Shown: positions 49,001 through 63,976 of the stretch, one piece after another | Position numbering within the stretch: the first letter of the stretch is position 1 | Layout: the number at the start of each line of letters is the position of its first letter | Source: Ascidia mentula | Taxonomy: Eukaryota > Chordata > Ascidiacea > Phlebobranchia > Ascidiidae | Direction: 5' to 3' | Length of the DNA stretch: 64,000 nt | NCBI GenBank assembly: GCA_947561715.1 | Contig: OX387200.1 | Location: 16,122,501 to 16,186,500, forward strand | Program-made: the position numbers and the translations under genes | The notes under the pieces: model-generated | Seen by the model: only the letters and a program-made list of their open reading frames with translations | The model's database searches: none | What the model was told of the DNA's origin: nothing

Positions 49001-51408
49001 GATGGAGCTTCAGGTAACTCAAGACAAGGTGGAATAGAAAAGAAACAGTTTTTACAAGTTGCCAATCTGCTCAATGTTTATGTGGTTGAAGATGCATCCG
49101 CAGTGAATTGGTTCCTGAAAACTGTACCTGAACTATTTTTGTCCAAACCAAGCAGGTTTATTCAATTTTGTGTCAAACACAGGTATGTGTTTTTAGAAAG
49201 GTTATTTTGCTTCATGGTGTGTTGTATACTACATATTCAATGCTGCCCATGTTGCAGGATGTTCATATGGTTTTTTGATCTCTTAATCATTGCCAATGCT
49301 GTCTGCATTGGTGTTGGAGCTGAAGATACTGAATGGTTCTTTTTGTCCATGTTTATTCTGGAAATCTTGGTGAAGATATATGTTTATGGTCCACGGGAAT
49401 ACTTCAGTTTTCACAGACTGTGGAATTGGTAAGTCGTTGCAAAGTACTAAATTAAGTAGGACTTTTATGATTGAGAAATAGGTTTTTCAACTACATATCA
49501 CTTATTATTAATAGACACAAGGTAGCATGTTCTCTTCAAGAGAAATGTTAAATTGCTTTGATTTCATTTTTTGTTTACCTTGAATATATTTTATTATTAG
49601 GTTTGATTTTATCATCATAATGGCTGCTTTTATTGCAACTGTTGCTGAGGCAAGTTTGAATGAATGTAAGTACAATAACATTACAAAGTTTCAAAGAAAA
49701 ATAAATTGCAAAAGAAAATATTTTTACATCACTTGCATTGTGATTTTAAATTTGAAGATGTTTTGCCACCATAAAAAGGCAGGTAATACCAGCATATGTT
49801 TTGTTATAATTGACCTACTGAATGCTGGCAGCTTCACTTTTTGGTGGAAACGTAAAAGTAAACGTAACAAAATAATTAAAATCTATGTTGGATTTTCAAA
49901 TTGAAAGTTTTTTTGCAGTGAACTCATTCCCACGGGAGGTTTTGGACTTCATCATGGTGCTCAGATGTTTAAGGCTAGTGAGAATTGCAGGGAATGTGCA
50001 AGGATTCAGGACTGTTATCATGACTATTGTGAACATTTTGCCATCTCTTTTAACATATGGAGTTGTGCTGCTGGTAAAATAAATGCCAATTTACAGGAAA
50101 ACCTTGAAAGATGACATCATTTTTTTTGCTTTTAGATGCTTTATTATGCCTTCGCCATAGTTGGAATGGAAGCATTTCAGGGAAAAATCAAATTTGTCAA
50201 CGATGGAACAACACCTGCAGAAAACTATTGTGGCAATCCTAAACTAGACGAGTCAGAATTCTTAAGAATGGGTTATTGCAACAATAACTTCAATGATCTT
50301 CTACATTCATTGGTTACCCTTGTGATTTTGACGGTGGTCAACCAATGGCACAATATCCTTTCATTTTCCGCTATCGAAGGCGTTATTAGTGATGTGTATT
50401 TGCAGTAACATTTATTATGCTATTAGTTTTAATCCAATAATGCAGGCCAACAAAATGGGTAATTTCTAAATTTATTGTGAACCCTAGATATATAAGGCTC
50501 ATTTCAATAGGCTGTATTAAATGAATGGGGTTTTGGAAAACAATTAGTTGTGAAAGTGTGTCATTCTTCCTTAAAAGTAGTTACTTATTACCCTTGGTTA
50601 TACTCTAGTTACCAGCAAGGCTGCAAGACTGTACTTTGTCATGTTTCACCTTATTGTGGTTATTTTGATCATGAAGTGAGTGTGGTGACCGAAATTCCAC
50701 TCTATAAAGCTCCAGTAAACAGCATGTACTTTATTTATATAGTATTATTGTTGCATTTGTGCTTGAGGCTTTCATATTGGAATACAGCTTGTCCAAAACA
50801 ACAATTGAAAGCAAAGTGGAAAAAACAATTCATGAGCTTGGTCTCAATGCTGATGAGTAAGTGAAATTACTTAAGGCTTATATGCAACAGTGTATTTCCA
50901 AGTTAAAATTTTTGTCGGGGTTTTGTGTTGTAAAATATTGTCAGGTAGTTAATTCTAATGATTTAAAAATATGCTCTTTTGACTCGATGGCTGACGGCCA
51001 TGGTTTTAGACACATGCCATTTTATGCATTACATTTATTGTTCATTATAACTTTGCGCGTAAAATAAGCAAAAGTTTATATTTTTTATAGAAATGTGACG
51101 AGCACTAATACTGACAGAACTGGTATAATTGATACAGCTGATCCTACTGAGGATGTTCCCTACTCCGGAAGACGGGACCCGAGAGGGGAACAGTCAAAAA
51201 TTAAATTTAGAATTAAAGAAGGTTGATAACCTGACCCCTAACACTTCTATAGAAGTTTCTACAAGTCATAAATTTATTTTCAGGTCATAAAAACATTGAA
51301 GTCATTCTTCAAAAAATGTTCGAAGGAGAGATTGGGGATGATGGGTTGGTGCCACCCTCTCAAGAGCTTACACTTGACGGTGTTACAGGAACCACCGTAT
51401 CTGTTTAA
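46011..51408 (+). CDS. TPCN3: Two-pore cation channel, TPC3-like, 16 exons, complete
   Basis: Endolysosomal or plasma-membrane cation channel with two six-helix repeats, 849 aa. Exons: 46011-46295, 46667-46870, 47021-47149, 47218-47334, 47701-47921, 47986-48112, 48219-48377, 48956-49182, 49258-49428, 49601-49665, 49919-50073, 50136-50388, 50609-50675, 50743-50856, 51091-51221, 51284-51408. Repeat I has IEDAIL before S1, S4 RVSRCLRPLF and filter TTANSPDVM (about 311-319). Repeat II has S4 VLRCLRLVRIAGNVQG and filter TVVNQW (about 686-691). VRRAFRNIRMTVPEI, the linker TSKAARLYF and the tail IEVILQKMFEGEIGDDG favour TPC3 over TPC1 or TPC2. The start is the first in-frame ATG and gives an Asp/Ser-rich cytosolic N-terminus. 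The exon 12 donor (A|gtgatg) is the weakest border. Known TPC3 channels are voltage-gated and sodium-selective (family knowledge). Confidence 0.93.
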
Positions 51409-54343: not shown

Positions 54344-57300
54344 TCAGCATATTATCGGCATCCTTTCTCTGTCACAGGGGTATTCGTATAGTCCACTAGA
54401 GGCGTGATGCCGAAGAAGTTGCGATGCAGCATTGCGGCAGGATTTCCGCGGGGTGAAGTAGTGAAGGCACTTGGCTTTCCAGTTGCTTCGTGAGTCGTGA
54501 CAAGCGCAGTTGAAATACCATGGAAGGACAAACTCGGCTTCGCAGGTGATAATGCGATCGCCGTAAGTCAACTAAAAAAAATTAAAAAAACTTGGCGTTT
54601 CAAGAGTTGCATCCAATGATTATATAAGTCTACAATCTTACGTAATAAGTATCTAATTTTCAGCATATGGCTTTTGAAACATAATAATACACAGTAATAT
54701 AAACACAAAATAACAACTTGGCATATTGCAACAAATATGTCAATAGGTATTAGATTTAAGTGGCTGGGCCCTGGCTAACTAGATGCATTTACACTGATCT
54801 GTTCATTTTTCAAAATTACCTGCATTGGCTTTTTAAATTTCGAAATTTTCAGTTTCTCCAGTTGTTTACGTAAGTTTTTAAATGTCAACTCGTTTTCGCA
54901 ACTTTCACCAAAATGGCACTCGGGGCATTTGCAAGCTGGATACGGACTGCTCCATTCTCCATTTACCAAGCAAGTTCGCTCAGTCAGCCCCTTGAAAAAA
55001 GTAATAAGATAAATGGAGTTGTAAAAATATGGCAGTTTACTTCAACATCACAAGCACATACAGTTTTTCCGAATTTTTTTCATGCGAAACAAATTATAAA
55101 ACGTTGTGGTGTATTTGTACTTCTGAAGTTCAATTTTACGCTTGAATGAGCACACATTAATAATGGACACTTTCTGTGGCGAATACAAACATGTATTTGC
55201 AGAAAAAAATCGCCAACATTCAGTTGCTGTATATGGTTGCTTTAACTACAATCTGGGGTGTTTGCAAATCAGCAATTTTCAGAGAAATGGTAAATGAATA
55301 TGTCTAACACGATGTGTTACCTGTGCCTTCTTGCCACCAGTGCAGCGATAAGTGCAAATCGACCCTTGAAGGTGGTGATTGGTACATAATATCTCATCAA
55401 TGCCCGATGGAATTGGTTGTTTTTGACACACTACATAATAAACCCTGGGTAATTTTTTCTACAAATACAACCAAACTAAATATCGCCGCGCGTCGAAAAG
55501 GCGCACAATTCATTTACTTGTGTACTTCAAAGAGTTGCAGAATTTGTCATTACAATCATTGCAATGCTTAAAACCCTTTTAAAAAAGCTTACTCGGTGAA
55601 AATGTTGAGTCTCCGTTGTGAGAAGAATGATTAAATAAAAGGGTTTTTTCAGTTTCTTCGTTCACATTTGTCGTGCCCGAGTGGATCGCCATTACACACA
55701 GAACGCAAGTGGAGGCAAACAATAGCAATGCCACGGAAAAGGCAATCCAACACTTCCTCGAGTAACCATTTGACCACCAAATCCCTGCAAGTAAAACAGA
55801 ATAATGACCCCACACAGCTCTTCTTATACCAACCTTGTATAGCATATTAACATGATAGACACATTACATAATTATGGATTAATGCAGCACATCGGAAAAC
55901 GCACAATAAGCACCTTTTTGGTTTCCAATTTCAAACTTATCTGTCGCGTGATCAACTGATTCGTGTCTGATTGTACGTTTTTTGTAACCACCAAAGGCTT
56001 TTGTCCTGGGTCTTTTATAGCCCAAAGCCTTCGAATTTCCGACAATCTCCGAACCCGTAGGAGATACTTTCAATTCAGCGCAGACAGTTTCTTTAGAAGC
56101 GTGTTTGGTTTCGGGGTTGCGCACACATTGATTTACGTATCGCGCGCTATGGGGTGATTTATCAGCCAAACATGTAGGCGAAACTGACTGGTGGTTGCCG
56201 ACCACATCGCTGTTGACAGTAGTTGGGGTGTCCGATAAGGAGTGCGCATGCTGTGAAACAACAAAAACGCCTGATATGACCATAGCAGGTATCATTTCAC
56301 CGCTTGATCAATCCAGTTTTATTCATACCAAGTAATAAGCGTATTTTAAAACTAAATATTGCATTGTGATAGTTACTCGTATAAAAAGTAGAATACTTGT
56401 GATAAGTTTCGGTAAATAACAGTTTACTTTCATATTACCTGCAGACAAACAACGGCTGCCTTCACCTTGTGTGAATGTTTTTCAAAGTTTGGCTCCAAGG
56501 TTTCCTGAAGTTCTATTTGCAACACAACAAACTACTATGCAAATTAAACCCTTATAGTATGCAAATTTCAAATTTATTGGATGTCATTTTATTACCGACG
56601 AAGGACGGTCTTTGCTCAGGAACCTGTTTCCAGCTTTTCTGCATAGCTTCCTGTAAAAATTTTGGAGCATCTTCTGGTATTTCATTCAGTTCGGGTCGAT
56701 TGTATTTGGTTGGTTCCCTCAGAGCTCTTAGTACGTTTAAACTTAAAGCGTCTGCATATGACAAATTCGCAAGTTTATGGGCTATAAGTAAGTATACAAA
56801 ATGTTTAATACACTTACTGTGGTAAGGTATTCCGTTGGACAACAATTCCCAGAGAAAAATCCCGAAACTAATAAAGAAAAGGCTTTAGCAAAAACGTTTA
56901 TAGTAGGCTACTAATTGGTAACGTAGGCCTAATTTCCAAACAAACTCCAAATTGGACCAAGCAAACTTTACCAACTCGGTCATCTGCCTCATGCACAAGC
57001 TGAATTGAATACCAACCATACATAAGTCCAAACACTATGTATATATATATATTCAGAATCAGACAAAACACCTATATGTGTCCGACTTTTCTGTTGCACT
57101 TCTGTTGGGATCCAACAAATGCTCGGGTGCGATATGACTTATTGTTTCTTCCACTTGACGCTTGGTCTCGCTGACGTTTTCTATCACGTAACATAAATAT
57201 TACGCAATAGTGTTGTGCAAAATAGTCAATAAAAATACCAACCGTATTTAACATGGTTTGACATGACACGGGTAAGCTTGGCAAGCGTGTGCATTTGGAA

Positions 57301-58172
57301 TAAACCGAAGTCACATATCTAAGGATATATTTGCTTTTAATACATTCATTTATGTTCAGTTATTTACTTGAATACCTTCACGCAAAGATCTCGATCAAGT
57401 AACACATTGGTCGATTTCAGATTAAGATGCAAAACATTTTTTGGCTTTTGTCCATTAAGAAACACCATGCCCTCCACCACCTAAACGAAATAACATGACC
57501 TAAACTAAAAATAACAATAAAATAAATGGTAGTCCCAAAATTTTGTGTTGTTGGGACTATCTTCTTAAAATTAGCACAATCTAGCCCTCGATAAGTATAC
57601 CAGCGACATCAAATTCAAAAGATAGATGTTATAGATATATAAAAGGCAACGTCAACTATTTTACTTTATTTCGTAAAATCGGTTTCGCCTATTTCGTGTA
57701 TTTAAAATACCTGCATTGCGATGCGACATTTCAAGGCCCAAGTTTTCAGCCTGTTTTCCTTCGTTGTAAGGAAGGCTTTCAGTTTTTGGAAGAAACAAAA
57801 ACACGACCCGTACTTGACATACTCGGTCACAATACACAGTTCATTGTCGGAACAAATCATCCCAAACACATTCACGATGCGGTCGAACTTCAAATCCCAC
57901 AAAAGCGTCGCTTCACGTTTCAAATGACGTAGATCGCTGAAAACAAGATTTTGTTGTCAATGGCAACCTTAATATGGGGCATGACCAAACGACGCGCTGG
58001 TAACTTACTCATTTGTCATATGACATTTCAGGAGCTGCTTCACCACCACATATCTATCCGAAGCAACGACAGTTCGAAATTTGTACAGATCAACTTTCCC
58101 AAACGTCCCAACGCCAAGCGCGCTTACGTATGTTAGGTCTTGTTTTTTGATCAAGGGTATTGTCTTTGTCAT
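54344..58172 (-). CDS. Type II membrane RIPK-like pseudokinase with one sushi domain (copy B)
   Basis: 665 aa, 13 exons: 58009-58172, 57711-57936, 57376-57480, 57243-57318, 57072-57180, 56818-56867, 56596-56751, 56439-56512, 55914-56250, 55593-55784, 55321-55430, 54820-54990, 54344-54571. The ATG at 58172 follows an in-frame TAA, so nothing precedes the kinase. Gly loop GVGTFGKV (20-27), VVVK Lys45, DFG 168-170, APE 208-210. The catalytic loop reads HLNLKSTN (148-155), with Asn150 replacing the catalytic Asp, so it is probably inactive. A polar cytosolic stretch rich in Lys/Arg follows, then one membrane helix (about 445-466) with Arg/Lys on the N side, implying C-terminus outside. The ectodomain has one CCP (497-590) and a seven-Cys domain (591-665, starts LTYGDRIITCE). 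Paralogous to the gene to its right; exons 2, 3, 4, 6 and 11 match the corresponding right-hand exons in length. Confidence 0.85.
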
Positions 58173-59969
58173 GTTTTACTCAGTAAAAGCTACTTTCATT
58201 GAACTACACTGTCAACCAAAGTTAGAAATCAGACAAATATATCAAGAAAATCATTTAAGCACATTTGATTCTTTAAATTATACTTTTTTCACTGCTAAAA
58301 CAACGTATTTTGGGAAAAAACGCAAGCTAAAAACTTGCCACCGGTAAAGCTGCTGTTCAATACGTGACATGAAATAAACTGCACAGCACGATTTACGAAC
58401 TAGGTATCAGCAATATCTTGAAACACATCACTGCGACGAAATATTATTGTCTCCGTTCACTTCATGTGCAACTGGGCCTACTTTGTGTGAACTGTGTGGC
58501 GACAACCCATATTATATGAGGGAGAAGAAAAGGCTCGCTCGTCCGCAGTAGACAAGTTTCCTATTACACTTGGCCACACAAAAGAGTGAGACACGTTTAC
58601 AACCTTATCGCAGTGCGGCGAAACTCGTCGTAACAATTCATTTTGATGACAGGGGATGTACCTGAAGCGCAAACGGCGAAATCCCCATTGTATTTTGGCG
58701 CAGACAAAGAATGTTTAAAATCATTTATAAGTGTGACCTGCTGGGTAAACTAACACGCGAACCTGAGGTTACACATAGGTGCGTTGACCTATGTTTACCA
58801 ATCGTGTTAAAATCAGGAAATTTGTCATACATTACTGACGTAAAGTTTATTAGAGACAGACCACCTATACTATAAACAAAAACATCCAATGAGAAAAACG
58901 CTGTTAACTGCTTCAAGTGTAATATACGTTCCTATTATTAAGTGTAATATACGTTCCCCAGCAACAGCCTCGTAACGGCCACCAACTATAAAACTTTTGT
59001 ATCGTCTGTGGTTCGGCGGTATTTACTCTCCTGTAAGCCTGGTTTGATGATTAATTTAACTCAAGGTGAACTTTTTTTCATGATCTTATCATTCCACGGT
59101 ACGAAAGTTGGTAAATAAGCAATAACCTTACATTTAGCTGGTATATTGACAAACAGTTACGTTTCGAATCAATCAGCCAAATATTTTGCCAAAACAATCT
59201 TTTGTGAAGTGTTTGCGACAGTAAATCTAAGCAAATCAAATACATAGATCATTATCTTATATTTTGTAGTATAATTGTCATCTGAAGCACTGCCAGTGGC
59301 GCGTGTTGCTGCATGCAATGGTCGTGTCCCAAAATTGCTGTCTATTTTAGCAAACACAAAAGCAAAATTGATTATACGTTTCAAAACTTTTTAGCATGAG
59401 CAATCAAGGAAATGCAAACACTGCATTTATCAAGAAAACTACCGTATGTGTTGTTTTAGATTTGAAACATTCCAGACAAATGGATTCACTAACCCGATGT
59501 ATTACATCTCAGTTCATCACTTGAAGCAAAGGCTGACATGTTTATTTACAGTAAATCTGTTAAAATGAAGGTGTTTTAACCAGTTATTTACATTCGTGCA
59601 CCCCGATTCAGTGCAAGCATTCAAGATCCAACATTATAGTACAGTAAATAAAAAACAGTGCACAAAACACTTAACACGGAGCCTCATTTTGTGCTTTAGA
59701 CTCTGCCATAAATGTTGAAATGATTTGATATTGGAGATGTGTAATTCGACAAGGTGCGAATCTTAAGCGTCATCATATCTATTCGAAACAACGGTTTAAT
59801 AATATTTATAGTAGGCAGTCAGGTACAGTAAGACAGTTCATGGAAGCGCATATTTACGATAATACTACCACTAAAACATTTACACAAACCTAAACTAATA
59901 AAGTTACAGAACATAGTTAGATCTTTGTGCAATACTGATGTGCAAAAGTGTAACCCCCAACAAAGCACA
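58173..59969. other. Intergenic region between the two kinase-sushi paralogs
   Basis: 1.8 kb, AT-rich, with short open frames only. Contains a 21-bp tandem duplication (gtgtaatatacgttcc repeated near 58.92-58.96 kb) and a minus-strand ATTAAA at 59795-59800 that may serve the right-hand gene. It must hold the promoter of the left-hand gene. Confidence 0.6.
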
Positions 59970-62900
59970 TCAACATTCAGATGGAACACTGCCAATATCG
60001 CAAGGGGCTTCGTACAATCCGTTAGCCACGTGGTGTCGTAAGAGATTAGCAACAGCATGACGACATGCTTCACGTCGATTCAGATAATCGTTACAAGTTC
60101 CGTCCCAGTTATCTATCGAATCACTACACGTGCAGTCGTAGTTGATAAACCAAATATCGACGTCACTTTCACACGTGATTGTACGATCTCCATACGTCAG
60201 CTGTTCGGTACAAAGTTTTGAGCTCAAATGTAAATAAAACATAGGAAATTGGATTATAAACTGTGGCAATACGTTGGCACCTCAATTGGAGTTTTGTCGT
60301 CATCCAACCGAGAAAGCTGCGAACTCAAATACGAATACCGGAGGGATTGTCCGCATGTTGGTCCGTATCTACACGGAGCACACTCGCATGTTGGTAAAAG
60401 AACATTCCAATTACCGTTTGCTTGGCACGACCTTTCGCTGAAACCCTGACATAAAGAATTCCATACGGGTTGAGAAGCGTAACCATTTTTATGGTGGACA
60501 AGCCTGGTTAATTGCGTATTGTGCAAAATGGTGTGAAGCGTAAAATGACATGCAAACAACCACATATAGGCCATCAAGCGGCGAACATAAGGTGTAAACT
60601 TACTATAATTGTATGGCCAGTGTAGCAACGATACGAACAAATCGACCCTGCAAAATATTCGCTGGTGCAATTTAGTTCATTTAAATTTTCAGGAAGTGCT
60701 TCCACGGGACACACTACGAAACAAAATTGGGTTTGACGTAGACTTTCTTACGGTCCTCCCATCATCTTACCTCTTATACATTCGGAGTTGGAAGCTGACC
60801 AGTCGCCATTAGATAAACACGTTTTGTCAGGTACCCCGTTGAGTTCGTAGCCGACATCGCACCTCACTGTGCAAACAGTGCCGTTTTTCACCTCCGATAA
60901 ATCGAATCCGTTACAAACCAACCTTCCGTTCACGATTGACGGGACCAGGCATGTTGCTGCGCCTTACCAAAGAAACGATACATCAGGCAAAGGCATATTA
61001 TTAATCACAAAATGCCCTTTATGAGACAGATACATTTTACTAAAACTGGAAACATCAATATTTCTCTGTTCGCATAAATGATGAAATGCAGTAAACAAAA
61101 ATTAAATATGACACAAAATTGCGGTGTTTTAGCCAAAGTATGTTTGACAGTTACTTTGGGGAAAGTCACGTACACAGACCTATGGTGCAGGTAGGTGTGT
61201 CGCCAGTCCAAGTGCCTTCGATGCTACACGTAAGAGTGGACGAACCAGTCAAAACGTAACCATGGCGACAGTCAAACTCGCAAACGTCGCCAGCAATAAA
61301 TTGATCTTCCGAGGAGAAACACGTTTTAATTCCGTTTGTGATGTTATTCAATCGTGGGCATCGTGAATCTGGAAACATTGCGCAAATGGTTCAGTCAACA
61401 TTGCTTTACGACGCGAACAACTGTATAGCAACGTGGGTGGTTGTCATACACAAAGGTTCATTAACTTGTAAAAACTTTTAAACTTCTGGAATATAACCTG
61501 TGTTTCCGCACTCCCCAGAAATGAAGCAGAAGCTCCGATTGTTGGCGAGAAACAATATTAGGAATATCAAACCCAGGAGGGCAAGAGCGACAAACAAGAT
61601 ACAGCAACCCCTTTTCGTGCAGAAGCACTGCATACAATTCGTACCCCTGTTTCGTAACTTGCTGCCAGCGGAGGCGATGCTGAAATAAAATCGCGATGAC
61701 GTTGTGCCTTGGGCTGATCTGCTTGCAGCACATGTGGCCGGGTTGGTGTAACTGTGTGGAAGACCCGAAGTATTTGTGTTATGCGATACGCAGGCAAGTG
61801 CATTGGGGCGGGATGTATTTCTGGCAACAACATAAGGTTGACTTATCCGTGTGGTACTTGACCGGGTCGGCATTGAATTGTAAGCGCTGTCGTCGTGTTG
61901 ATGACGTTGAGGGCTATGAAAAGGTAGATCGTGTATGCGGGAGGCAGGGGATATCTCCACGTTGATATCATTTAGCATACTGCTGGTTGTCACTAATGGA
62001 TCCTGAAAATAATTGTTTGGCAAACGTATAGGCCCATGACATTGCTATCAACCTGTAATAAACCGATGAAGACAAACCTCTTCGCCGAGCACGATTCTTG
62101 CCGACCTTTCTGATTGGGGCAGTATCGTGTTAAAGTCTTCTTGAAATCCTGCGCGAAGCTCTAAAACACGGGAATTATAATTACATGCGTTTATGTTTTT
62201 TGATGAAAAAACTTCGAGACAAAGCAAATAAACCCAAACTATCCGTATTCTCACGTTTCTTTGCGCCGCCATTACAGCGTTCCCATACTTTGTTCATTAT
62301 AACTAACGTGAAAAGCTTGGTCGCTGTTCTGGAATTCCCGCCCATGATTGTCGCATCATTTTGACAAGAAAGTTTGGTGTGTCCCGGGGTACATCGCTCA
62401 TTTTTGGTCGCAAGTCATCATAAATTATTTTGTCAATAACGAAACGATTCAGAGTACCTTTTACAGCAATTAAAGCATCTGAGAGCAATGTTTGAAATTA
62501 TTTTGGTAATTTACTTTAGAATGATCATTGTATCACCTTTGTATGGAAAGTCGTTGGCCACGAGTTCCCAAATAAATATGCCAAAGCTGCAAAGTAAATC
62601 AGCAGTTTCCTTAAAACAATCCTCAAATAATTTGGCTGCCTCAATGACAAGCATATTAAAAAAAAGTTAACAAAAGGCTTAAAAAACAGGTATTTGTGTC
62701 ATCCAGTAAAACAAATCTGCAGAGACTGCCTTCTTGAAAATTTCGCAAAATAAAATACAAACATGGTAACAAACAATACCTGTATGTGTCCAGTTTTACT
62801 GAAGGTTTTTGATCGGGATGTTTTAACCGCTCTGGTGCACAATGGGTGGGTGTGCCTCCTACTTTTTCTGCAATTAAACATCGTCATGAAAAAGTCACAG

Positions 62901-63976
62901 TTTGTTAAAATAAATAGTAAAAACAATTGCCAGCTCTGATTTAAAGACAACAGACATACCGACTCTCTGATATATCGATGTAGCGTTCGATAAGCCTGTG
63001 AGGACCTGCATTTGGGATAAACCAAAATCGCATATCTGAAAAAATTGTGTTTACGCTCTTGTTTGAGTATATATGTATTACATGTTTCTTGTTTGTGTTT
63101 TGGTGCGAAGATGCAGAGTCGCTTACTTACTTTAGCGTGAAGCTTGTCATCAAGCAAAACGTTCTGTGCCTTCAGGTCAAGGTGTAAAATTCTTTGCGGA
63201 CTTTTTCCGTGAAGGTATTTCATGCCTTCTATTACCTGTAATTATATAAACGAGAACAAACCTACGATGCTATAACACCTACCTTTAAAAATCATCGTAC
63301 CTCATATACGATGCGACATTTTAACGGCCACACGTTACGACGTCCCTGGGGTGTTTTCGAAAAATCACGCAAGTGACGAAAAAAGTTGGAGCAAGATCCA
63401 TGAATTGCGTATTCCATCACAACGCAAAACCCCCCATCGCTACAGAGAAGTCCCACCATGTTGATAATATGCTCACACTTGAGATTCCACAGTAACTTGG
63501 CTTCATTCTTTAGTAACTCCCGATCACTTCAAGGTGAAAATAAAGCCCAATTTAAGAATGATAACAGACAAAAAACAAAGAGATATTCTGATATTAAGTC
63601 ATTAATGGCAAAAATCTCATTACGTTTTAATGACATTGAACATATAAATTTAGCTCGTCCAGCAAATAAAATAATATATTGTCAATATTTTGTACACAGT
63701 AATAACACTACGTCTGACACAGAAATTCGTTTACATAGGTTTTGCATTGTTAATGTACTCGTTTGCACCTTTCATACGTGTTTACAATTTTACAGTCCAT
63801 ACTTACTTTTCCTCAACAAAACCGTCGATGAGTTTTTTAACTGCCACCTGTTTGGTAATCTGCTTGCCATCCTGAAATGTAAGATAATCGTGCAAAGTAA
63901 CAACCCCAAATCCACCTCTTCCGATTTGTTTGACCAATTTCAACTTTGTCTGGTCAACTTCAGGAGGACGTTCCAT
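59970..63976 (-). CDS. Type II membrane RIPK-like kinase with three sushi domains (copy A)
   Basis: 784 aa, 14 exons: 63807-63976, 63301-63526, 63131-63235, 62960-63035, 62780-62867, 62537-62586, 62308-62478, 62078-62160, 61498-62002, 61180-61368, 60771-60956, 60604-60713, 60281-60445, 59970-60200. The ATG at 63976 has TAA immediately before it in frame. Kinase motifs: GRGGFGVV (19-26), VAVK Lys47, alpha-C Glu65, HLDLKAQN (150-157), DFG 170-172, APE 203-205. All catalytic residues are present, with Leu for Arg in HRD. Overall closest in feel to RIPK-type TKL kinases (IEGMKYLH..ILHLDLKAQNVLLD). A Ser/Thr-rich segment and one helix (about 456-476) follow, with TKRGCC on its N side. Outside are three CCP modules (492-554, 555-616, 617-672) with N-glycosylation motifs, then a seven-Cys domain (709-784, starts LTYGDRTITCE). 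Confidence 0.87.

Follow-up and report, generated by a model that had tools for sequence, protein, structure and literature searches.

Kinases of the RIPK type govern inflammation and necroptosis in vertebrates, the sister group of the tunicates, and are soluble cytosolic proteins. Complement control protein (CCP, or Sushi) modules occur typically in proteins that are secreted or exposed at the cell surface, and Drosophila PGRP-LC has a type II topology. Among the systems already described, the RIPKs carry a RHIM, a death domain, a CARD or ankyrin repeats at their C-terminal end, and the accessible text of PMC12119088 reports RIPK1 homologues (kinase, RHIM and death domain) to be absent from tunicates. 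Unusual RIPK architectures are described for amphioxus in PMC9573974; the terms tunicate, ascidian, urochordate and Ciona are absent from its main text in the part available. In bacteria, the PASTA Ser/Thr kinases PrkC, StkP and PknB begin with a cytoplasmic kinase, cross the membrane by one helix and end in a sensor outside the cell; they presumably dimerise when ligand binds (PMC4601284, available sections). In Drosophila, the immune receptor PGRP-LC has a cytosolic part with a cryptic RHIM, and its relative PGRP-LF, which lacks the signalling part, inhibits the pathway (PMC9496462, in the portion available). In the ascidian Botryllus, fester and FcoR belong to a multigene family of type I receptors that combine Ig and Sushi domains and act in allorecognition (PMC12065747, in the part available). 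We describe here a gene family of another build from the ascidian Ascidia mentula, found in a window of 64,000 nucleotides, the whole stretch of DNA that was analysed (C67:16122501-16186500, contig OX387200.1; the genome searched comprises 195.8 Mb). Its members are predicted, at a probability of roughly 0.72, to be type II membrane receptor kinases encoded in tandem, with the kinase in the cytoplasm and the CCP modules and a Cys-rich C-terminal domain (CTD) outside.

On the minus strand of the window, spliced models built by hand give two complete genes, A and B, where an earlier sequence-only reading had located them. Their proteins share one order of parts, namely kinase, a hydrophilic tail of ~150 residues, one helix, one or more CCP modules and the CTD. 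Gene A (63976-59970) has 14 exons, with all introns GT-AG, and encodes 786 amino acids; its layout in Pfam is a RIPK-like kinase at residues 12-298, tail, helix, three Sushi stretches and CTD, and both the kinase and Sushi lie above the Pfam cut-off. The kinase domain comes from exons 1-7 (62308..63976), with the HLDLK loop (non-RD), DFG and the VAVK lysine all present. Exon 9 (61498..62002) holds the tail, with an EIS motif, and the membrane helix in a single frame that has no stops, the remaining frames having six and three. The helix CILFVALALLGLIFLILFL (61547..61603, residues 457-475) is the sole Kyte-Doolittle peak of at least 1.6 in the protein, exons 10-13 (60281..61368) encode the CCP modules, the last one divided between exons 12 and 13, together with the start of the CTD, and exon 14 (59970..60200) encodes the CTD core, which contains SDVDIWFINYDCTCSD. 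Gene B (58172-54344), modelled from its splicing and splice sites, has 13 exons and 665 amino acids, with a kinase-like domain, a helix (FSVALLLFASTCVLCVMAI, 55684..55740, residues 448-466), one CCP and the CTD, whose core lies in exon 13 (54344..54571). Its exon 3 (57376..57480) encodes the catalytic loop HLNLKSTN, with Asn in place of the catalytic Asp, and because the other genes read HLDLK where B reads HLNLK, B is probably a pseudokinase.

Genome searches with the CTD and with the kinase showed that additional copies lie past the right edge of the window, and the family comprises nine tandem loci, A-I, over ~69 kb (C67:16176844-16245530), all on the minus strand except C. Loci C-I were modelled with a custom spliced aligner that avoids stops, some exon edges being afterwards moved to real splice sites, and seven of the nine (A, B, D, E, F, G and I) could be modelled intact over their full length. 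Among the introns of these seven, 92/94 are GT-AG and two are GC-AG (one in G, one in I); kinase exons 1-8 have identical phases throughout, the phase of exon 9 deviating in the F model, and the number of CCPs per gene runs from one in B to four in G and I. The ratio of nonsynonymous to synonymous change (dN/dS) is below 1 for both halves of the protein in the computed pairs with unsaturated silent sites, except for the tail and last CCP of the pair E-F. In G-I it is 0.13 for the kinase, 0.29 for the tail, 0.41 for the CCPs, 0.24 for the last CCP and 0.25 for the CTD, and in D-G 0.23, 0.47, 0.29 and 0.16 for the first four of these parts. Nearly all measurable comparisons show purifying selection. 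The CTD has a further peculiarity: between A and G or I its dS is 0.59-0.69, far under the kinase dS (1.77 for A-I, saturated for A-G), so the CTD exons of A, G and I look as if swapped through gene conversion. CTD-like fragments also lie on the plus strand between genes, at C67:16199193-16199420 (five stops) and 16208888-16209124 (one stop inside), which suggests birth and death of copies. Close to the cluster, on the plus strand at 49876-50408 of the window, an ion channel gene is represented by two exons, with PF00520 scores of 26.1 bits, over the cut-off of 25, and 23.5 bits, just under it.

The same arrangement is found in a second species. Protein P0001 of Clavelina lepadiformis, a tunicate of the Aplousobranchia, has 897 amino acids and the order kinase, tail, helix, CCP and CTD from end to end. 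BLASTP aligns it to gene A in two blocks in the same order, over query residues 5-428 (35%) and 440-786 (34%); at this identity of 34-35% it differs from A in its longer tail, and the CTD motif SDVDIWFINYDCTCSD is identical in the two. Spliced alignment of gene A guided by P0001 reproduces 10 of the 14 exons exactly and exon 14 but for the stop codon, with exons 1, 7 and 10 differing at one edge and one spurious 12-base exon. P0001 is public as an 'unnamed protein product' (NCBI) and a 'Protein kinase domain-containing protein' (UniRef), and we found no description of it. A protein database search with the C-terminal part recovered two proteins, P0001 and P0002, the latter having CCPs only, and a search with the C-terminal part of P0001 recovered P0001 alone. 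Pfam kinase and Sushi were matched in all seven proteins scanned (A, B, D, F, G, I and P0001).

The sequence-only reading had spoken of a tandem pair, each gene joining a RIPK-like kinase to several CCP modules. The order kinase, helix, CCP and Cys-rich C-terminus in a single protein recurs in the models of A, B and the other intact paralogues and in P0001. The tandem arrangement likewise stands, although it extends to nine loci rather than two; CCP modules in the plural hold for A but B has one; and the kinase is RIPK-like by profile and tree (see below), with the qualification that the B loop points to a pseudokinase.

It could be argued that the models fuse two neighbours, a soluble RIPK-like kinase gene and a gene for a CCP-CTD membrane protein, and that the Clavelina annotation does the same. 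The joining of kinase and CCPs is known here from genome sequence alone, and the genome does have CCP-CTD exons elsewhere at which no kinase was detected. However, a single frame carries kinase, tail and helix in the hand-built models of A and B and in those of the other five intact loci, made with the stop-avoiding aligner. The coding frame of exon 9, which runs from the kinase tail to the helix in A and up to the helix exon in the others, is free of stops at all nine loci, each non-coding frame having 1-12; for C-I the exon edges come from that aligner, so the open frame there is supporting rather than independent evidence. No separate signal peptide was seen, and the arrangement in P0001 is identical. 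We therefore consider it unlikely, given the continuous frame in seven intact paralogues and the same arrangement in a second species, that the two halves belong to separate transcripts, the outcome that the sequence-only reading had named as its refutation, and a fusion made only by models and annotation is very improbable.

We next consider how such a protein would sit in the membrane, from calculations on nine proteins (A, B, D-I and P0001, with C left out). Each has exactly one strong hydrophobic peak, with a mean Kyte-Doolittle value of 2.5-3.3; E and F have an extra weak peak (1.77) within the CTD. None of the nine has a strongly hydrophobic N-terminus, the best 10-residue mean within the first 45 residues being 1.42, in B. 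The 15 residues before the helix carry a higher net charge than the 15 after it in eight of the nine, with a tie in F; in gene A the values are +3 and 0. Cysteines in gene A number 13 in the 456 residues before the helix and 30 in the 311 after it. An in-frame stop lies 0-30 codons 5' of the ATG at all nine loci, and between this stop and the ATG there is no AG acceptor in A, B and C, whereas one is present in D-I; an upstream signal-peptide exon is thus unlikely in A-I, less firmly so for D-I. By the charge and cysteine rule, and with no signal peptide in evidence, a type II orientation with the kinase inside is therefore the best reading. The single helix, the missing signal peptide and the kinase-inside prediction of the sequence-only reading are all borne out to this extent, and the upstream signal exon that it had named as able to reverse the topology looks improbable.

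A type II anchor leaves the final compartment unfixed, and the CCP/CTD half of the same protein, in the same orientation, could instead face the lumen of the endoplasmic reticulum or Golgi, or be shed, in which case it would be no surface receptor. Acidic dileucine-like stretches, of the sorting-signal type, in two kinase-less relatives (see below) speak for this, whereas CCP modules are usual at the surface or in secretion and the top PDB sequence matches are complement receptors and factor H. On balance we find such an internal or shed fate unlikely, and prefer a receptor with its CCP modules and CTD at the cell surface.

As to the kinase, a single-sequence search of the PDB puts RIPK1 at the top (128.8 bits). 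Among the best 60 of 2515 matches of a profile search, RIPK1 leads with 178.8 bits, followed by RIPK2 (143.8), RIPK4 (137.2) and then plant CTR1 (135.6), with B-raf at 113.6 bits. 'RIPK-like' stands here for a best match, which is no proof of family membership, since RIPK3 falls behind several non-RIPK kinases (see below). In a tree of 19 rows, a branch with support 91/89 (outside the starred class) separates JAK, RTK, MLK, plant and fungal kinases from a group made up of RIPK1, P0001, the kinases of the seven intact genes and three from another expansion in the genome. RIPK1 is the sole RIPK row and RIPK2-5 were left out, so the tree backs 'RIPK-like' and not 'RIPK1'. Family and P0001 together have support of 100/99, the positions of B and P0001 within that group not being settled by the tree. 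The catalytic loop is of the HLD (non-RD) type in A, D, E, F, G, I and P0001, and non-RD kinases, which lack the HRD arginine, are linked to innate immunity across kingdoms in the available part of PMC8463890. Ankyrin repeats were found neither in the seven scanned proteins (Pfam, E<=1) nor in the tails of A, G and P0001 (E<=10). Beyond the cluster, with 124 of 383 candidates scored, 113 of 128 kinase matches lie elsewhere, many in tandem and mostly as single open frames of ~280-370 amino acids, at C2 0.36-3.3 Mb, C69 19.28-19.62 Mb, C1 2.0-2.74 Mb and on C70 (loci L043-L052). One of them, from L048, has RIPK1 as its best match (91 bits; RIPK4 67), three are the rows that fall with RIPK1 and the family in the tree, and together they look like a very large RIPK-like expansion.

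The CTD is also found without a kinase. Outside the cluster, CTD-like exons occur at ~19 places (15 on C52, three on C73, one at another site on C67), the least significant having 0.12 as its best E; a match on C69 (E 0.44) is excluded from the count. Four of these places were read with their flanks (L055; L056 with L061; L057 with L060; L058 with L059), and in all four, judged by eye from six-frame translations, a helix-coding stretch precedes CCP and CTD exons. L057 and L058 give a clean alignment of the split CCP and CTD exons, L055 and L056 a poorer one. Searching the 32.8 kb of fetched stretches with six kinase domains (tblastn) gave no kinase, the best E being 0.11. At L057 (C73 5.53 Mb) and L058 (C52 18.26 Mb) the tails are ~90-120 residues long and have in common a YD(V/I)CIIRAKR motif followed by the acidic dileucine-like stretch; the L058 tail has no Pfam match at E<=10. 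Dense arrays of Sushi exons, seen among the best 150 scored matches, lie at C72 11.885-11.928 Mb, C67 12.99-13.016 Mb and C72 2.08-2.106 Mb, several exons having identical scores, as if recent duplicates. It is likely that a RIPK-like kinase joined a pre-existing type II CCP-CTD receptor, and the simplest history is one in which a single branch of an older CCP-CTD family gained the kinase before the split from Clavelina.

A structure model of the CTD, built from three sequences, has three strands and one helix at a predicted local distance difference test score (pLDDT) of 78.5 and may resemble the double-stranded RNA-binding fold, whose order of elements is alpha-beta-beta-beta-alpha. In sequence, PF00035 was not matched in any of the seven proteins at E<=1, and hhalign comparison with six double-stranded RNA-binding domains of the same genome was at chance, 33 of 150 shuffles scoring equally high. 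A more daring proposal, which we regard as a long shot, would have tunicates, for which a canonical RIPK1 is reported missing, wire a RIPK-type kinase straight to a membrane sensor. In this one-molecule receptor the outer tip, a disulphide-locked relative of this fold, would sense nucleic acid or some other polyanion outside the cell and set off RIPK-type cell death or NF-kB signalling without adaptors of the TNF-receptor type.

Several points weigh against the view of the family as type II receptor kinases. First of all, the family is known here from genome sequence alone: one open reading frame, the order of parts, the paralogy and the full-length Clavelina relative are established, and transcript, protein, topology and signalling are inferred. 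Second, that relative is the single full-length one that the protein database searches gave. Third, not all copies are sound, as two of the nine loci have damaged kinase exons, C having lost the donor of exon 5 and H the kinase stretch around the catalytic loop, and gene B is without the catalytic Asp. Between the near-identical genes E and F, dN is 0.046 against a dS of 0.013 for the tail and 0.022 against 0 for the last CCP, so that dN is the higher in both parts, on few changes. Finally, in the profile search a JAK-type chain (134.1 bits), ZAK (129.5) and an EGFR construct (128.6) all outscore RIPK3 (126.8), and Pfam gave no RHIM, death domain or CARD, either for the seven proteins (E<=1) or for the A, G and P0001 tails (E<=10).

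If this view of the family is right, the RIPK-like kinase at the N-terminus would lie in the cytoplasm, the single helix would serve as signal anchor, and one to four CCPs with the disulphide-rich CTD would stand outside. A ligand at the CCP/CTD tip could then cluster the receptors, the clustered kinases could trans-phosphorylate one another, and the variable tail might recruit NF-kB/MAPK or cell-death signalling, with gene B and the kinase-less relatives as candidate inhibitory or decoy partners. Such a mechanism, which we consider likely, would resemble that of the PASTA kinases, with their presumed dimerisation on ligand, and that of PGRP-LC with its inhibitory relative PGRP-LF. If true, this would be a multi-copy animal family of receptor kinases, most likely of tunicates, with the kinase before the membrane. 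It would be relevant to the wiring of RIPK signalling beyond RHIM and death-domain adaptors, since RIPK1 homologues are reported absent from tunicates. In addition, an active kinase, a probable pseudokinase and kinase-less relatives on one type of ectodomain would provide a natural test series for topology and signalling.

The closest ascidian comparison raises the question of what is recognised. Fester acts in allorecognition and the number of CCPs varies among our tandem copies, as might be expected if a genuine type II receptor kinase served self/non-self recognition, fertilisation or developmental adhesion rather than the sensing of microbes; the architecture described for fester and FcoR, however, combines Ig and Sushi domains in a type I protein and includes no kinase, whereas our family is kinase-first and gave no match to any Ig family in Pfam (all seven proteins). 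We hold such a role to be possible but doubtful. The kinase domain is nearest to RIPK1 among PDB chains and shares the catalytic loop without the HRD arginine, but the family has a helix and ectodomain in place of the RHIM, death, CARD or ankyrin C-terminus and is thus not of the soluble type. PGRP-LC and PGRP-LF differ in having a PGRP ectodomain and no kinase. Ordinary animal receptor kinases (type I) run from signal peptide and ectodomain through the helix to the kinase; all our models put the kinase first, in the reverse order that the sequence-only reading had described. That reading knew of no receptor family so arranged, which agrees with our limited literature search, where no animal receptor that starts with a kinase and ends in CCPs was found, but does not hold for bacteria. 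Judged from sequence order and charge, the family and the PASTA kinases have the succession of kinase, helix and outside sensor in common, and they differ in that the latter are bacterial and carry PASTA repeats, for which Pfam scans of gene A and all seven proteins gave Sushi instead; no shared origin of the order is implied. The kinase-first order itself is thus already known, and the Ascidia family would be an unusual form of receptor kinase.

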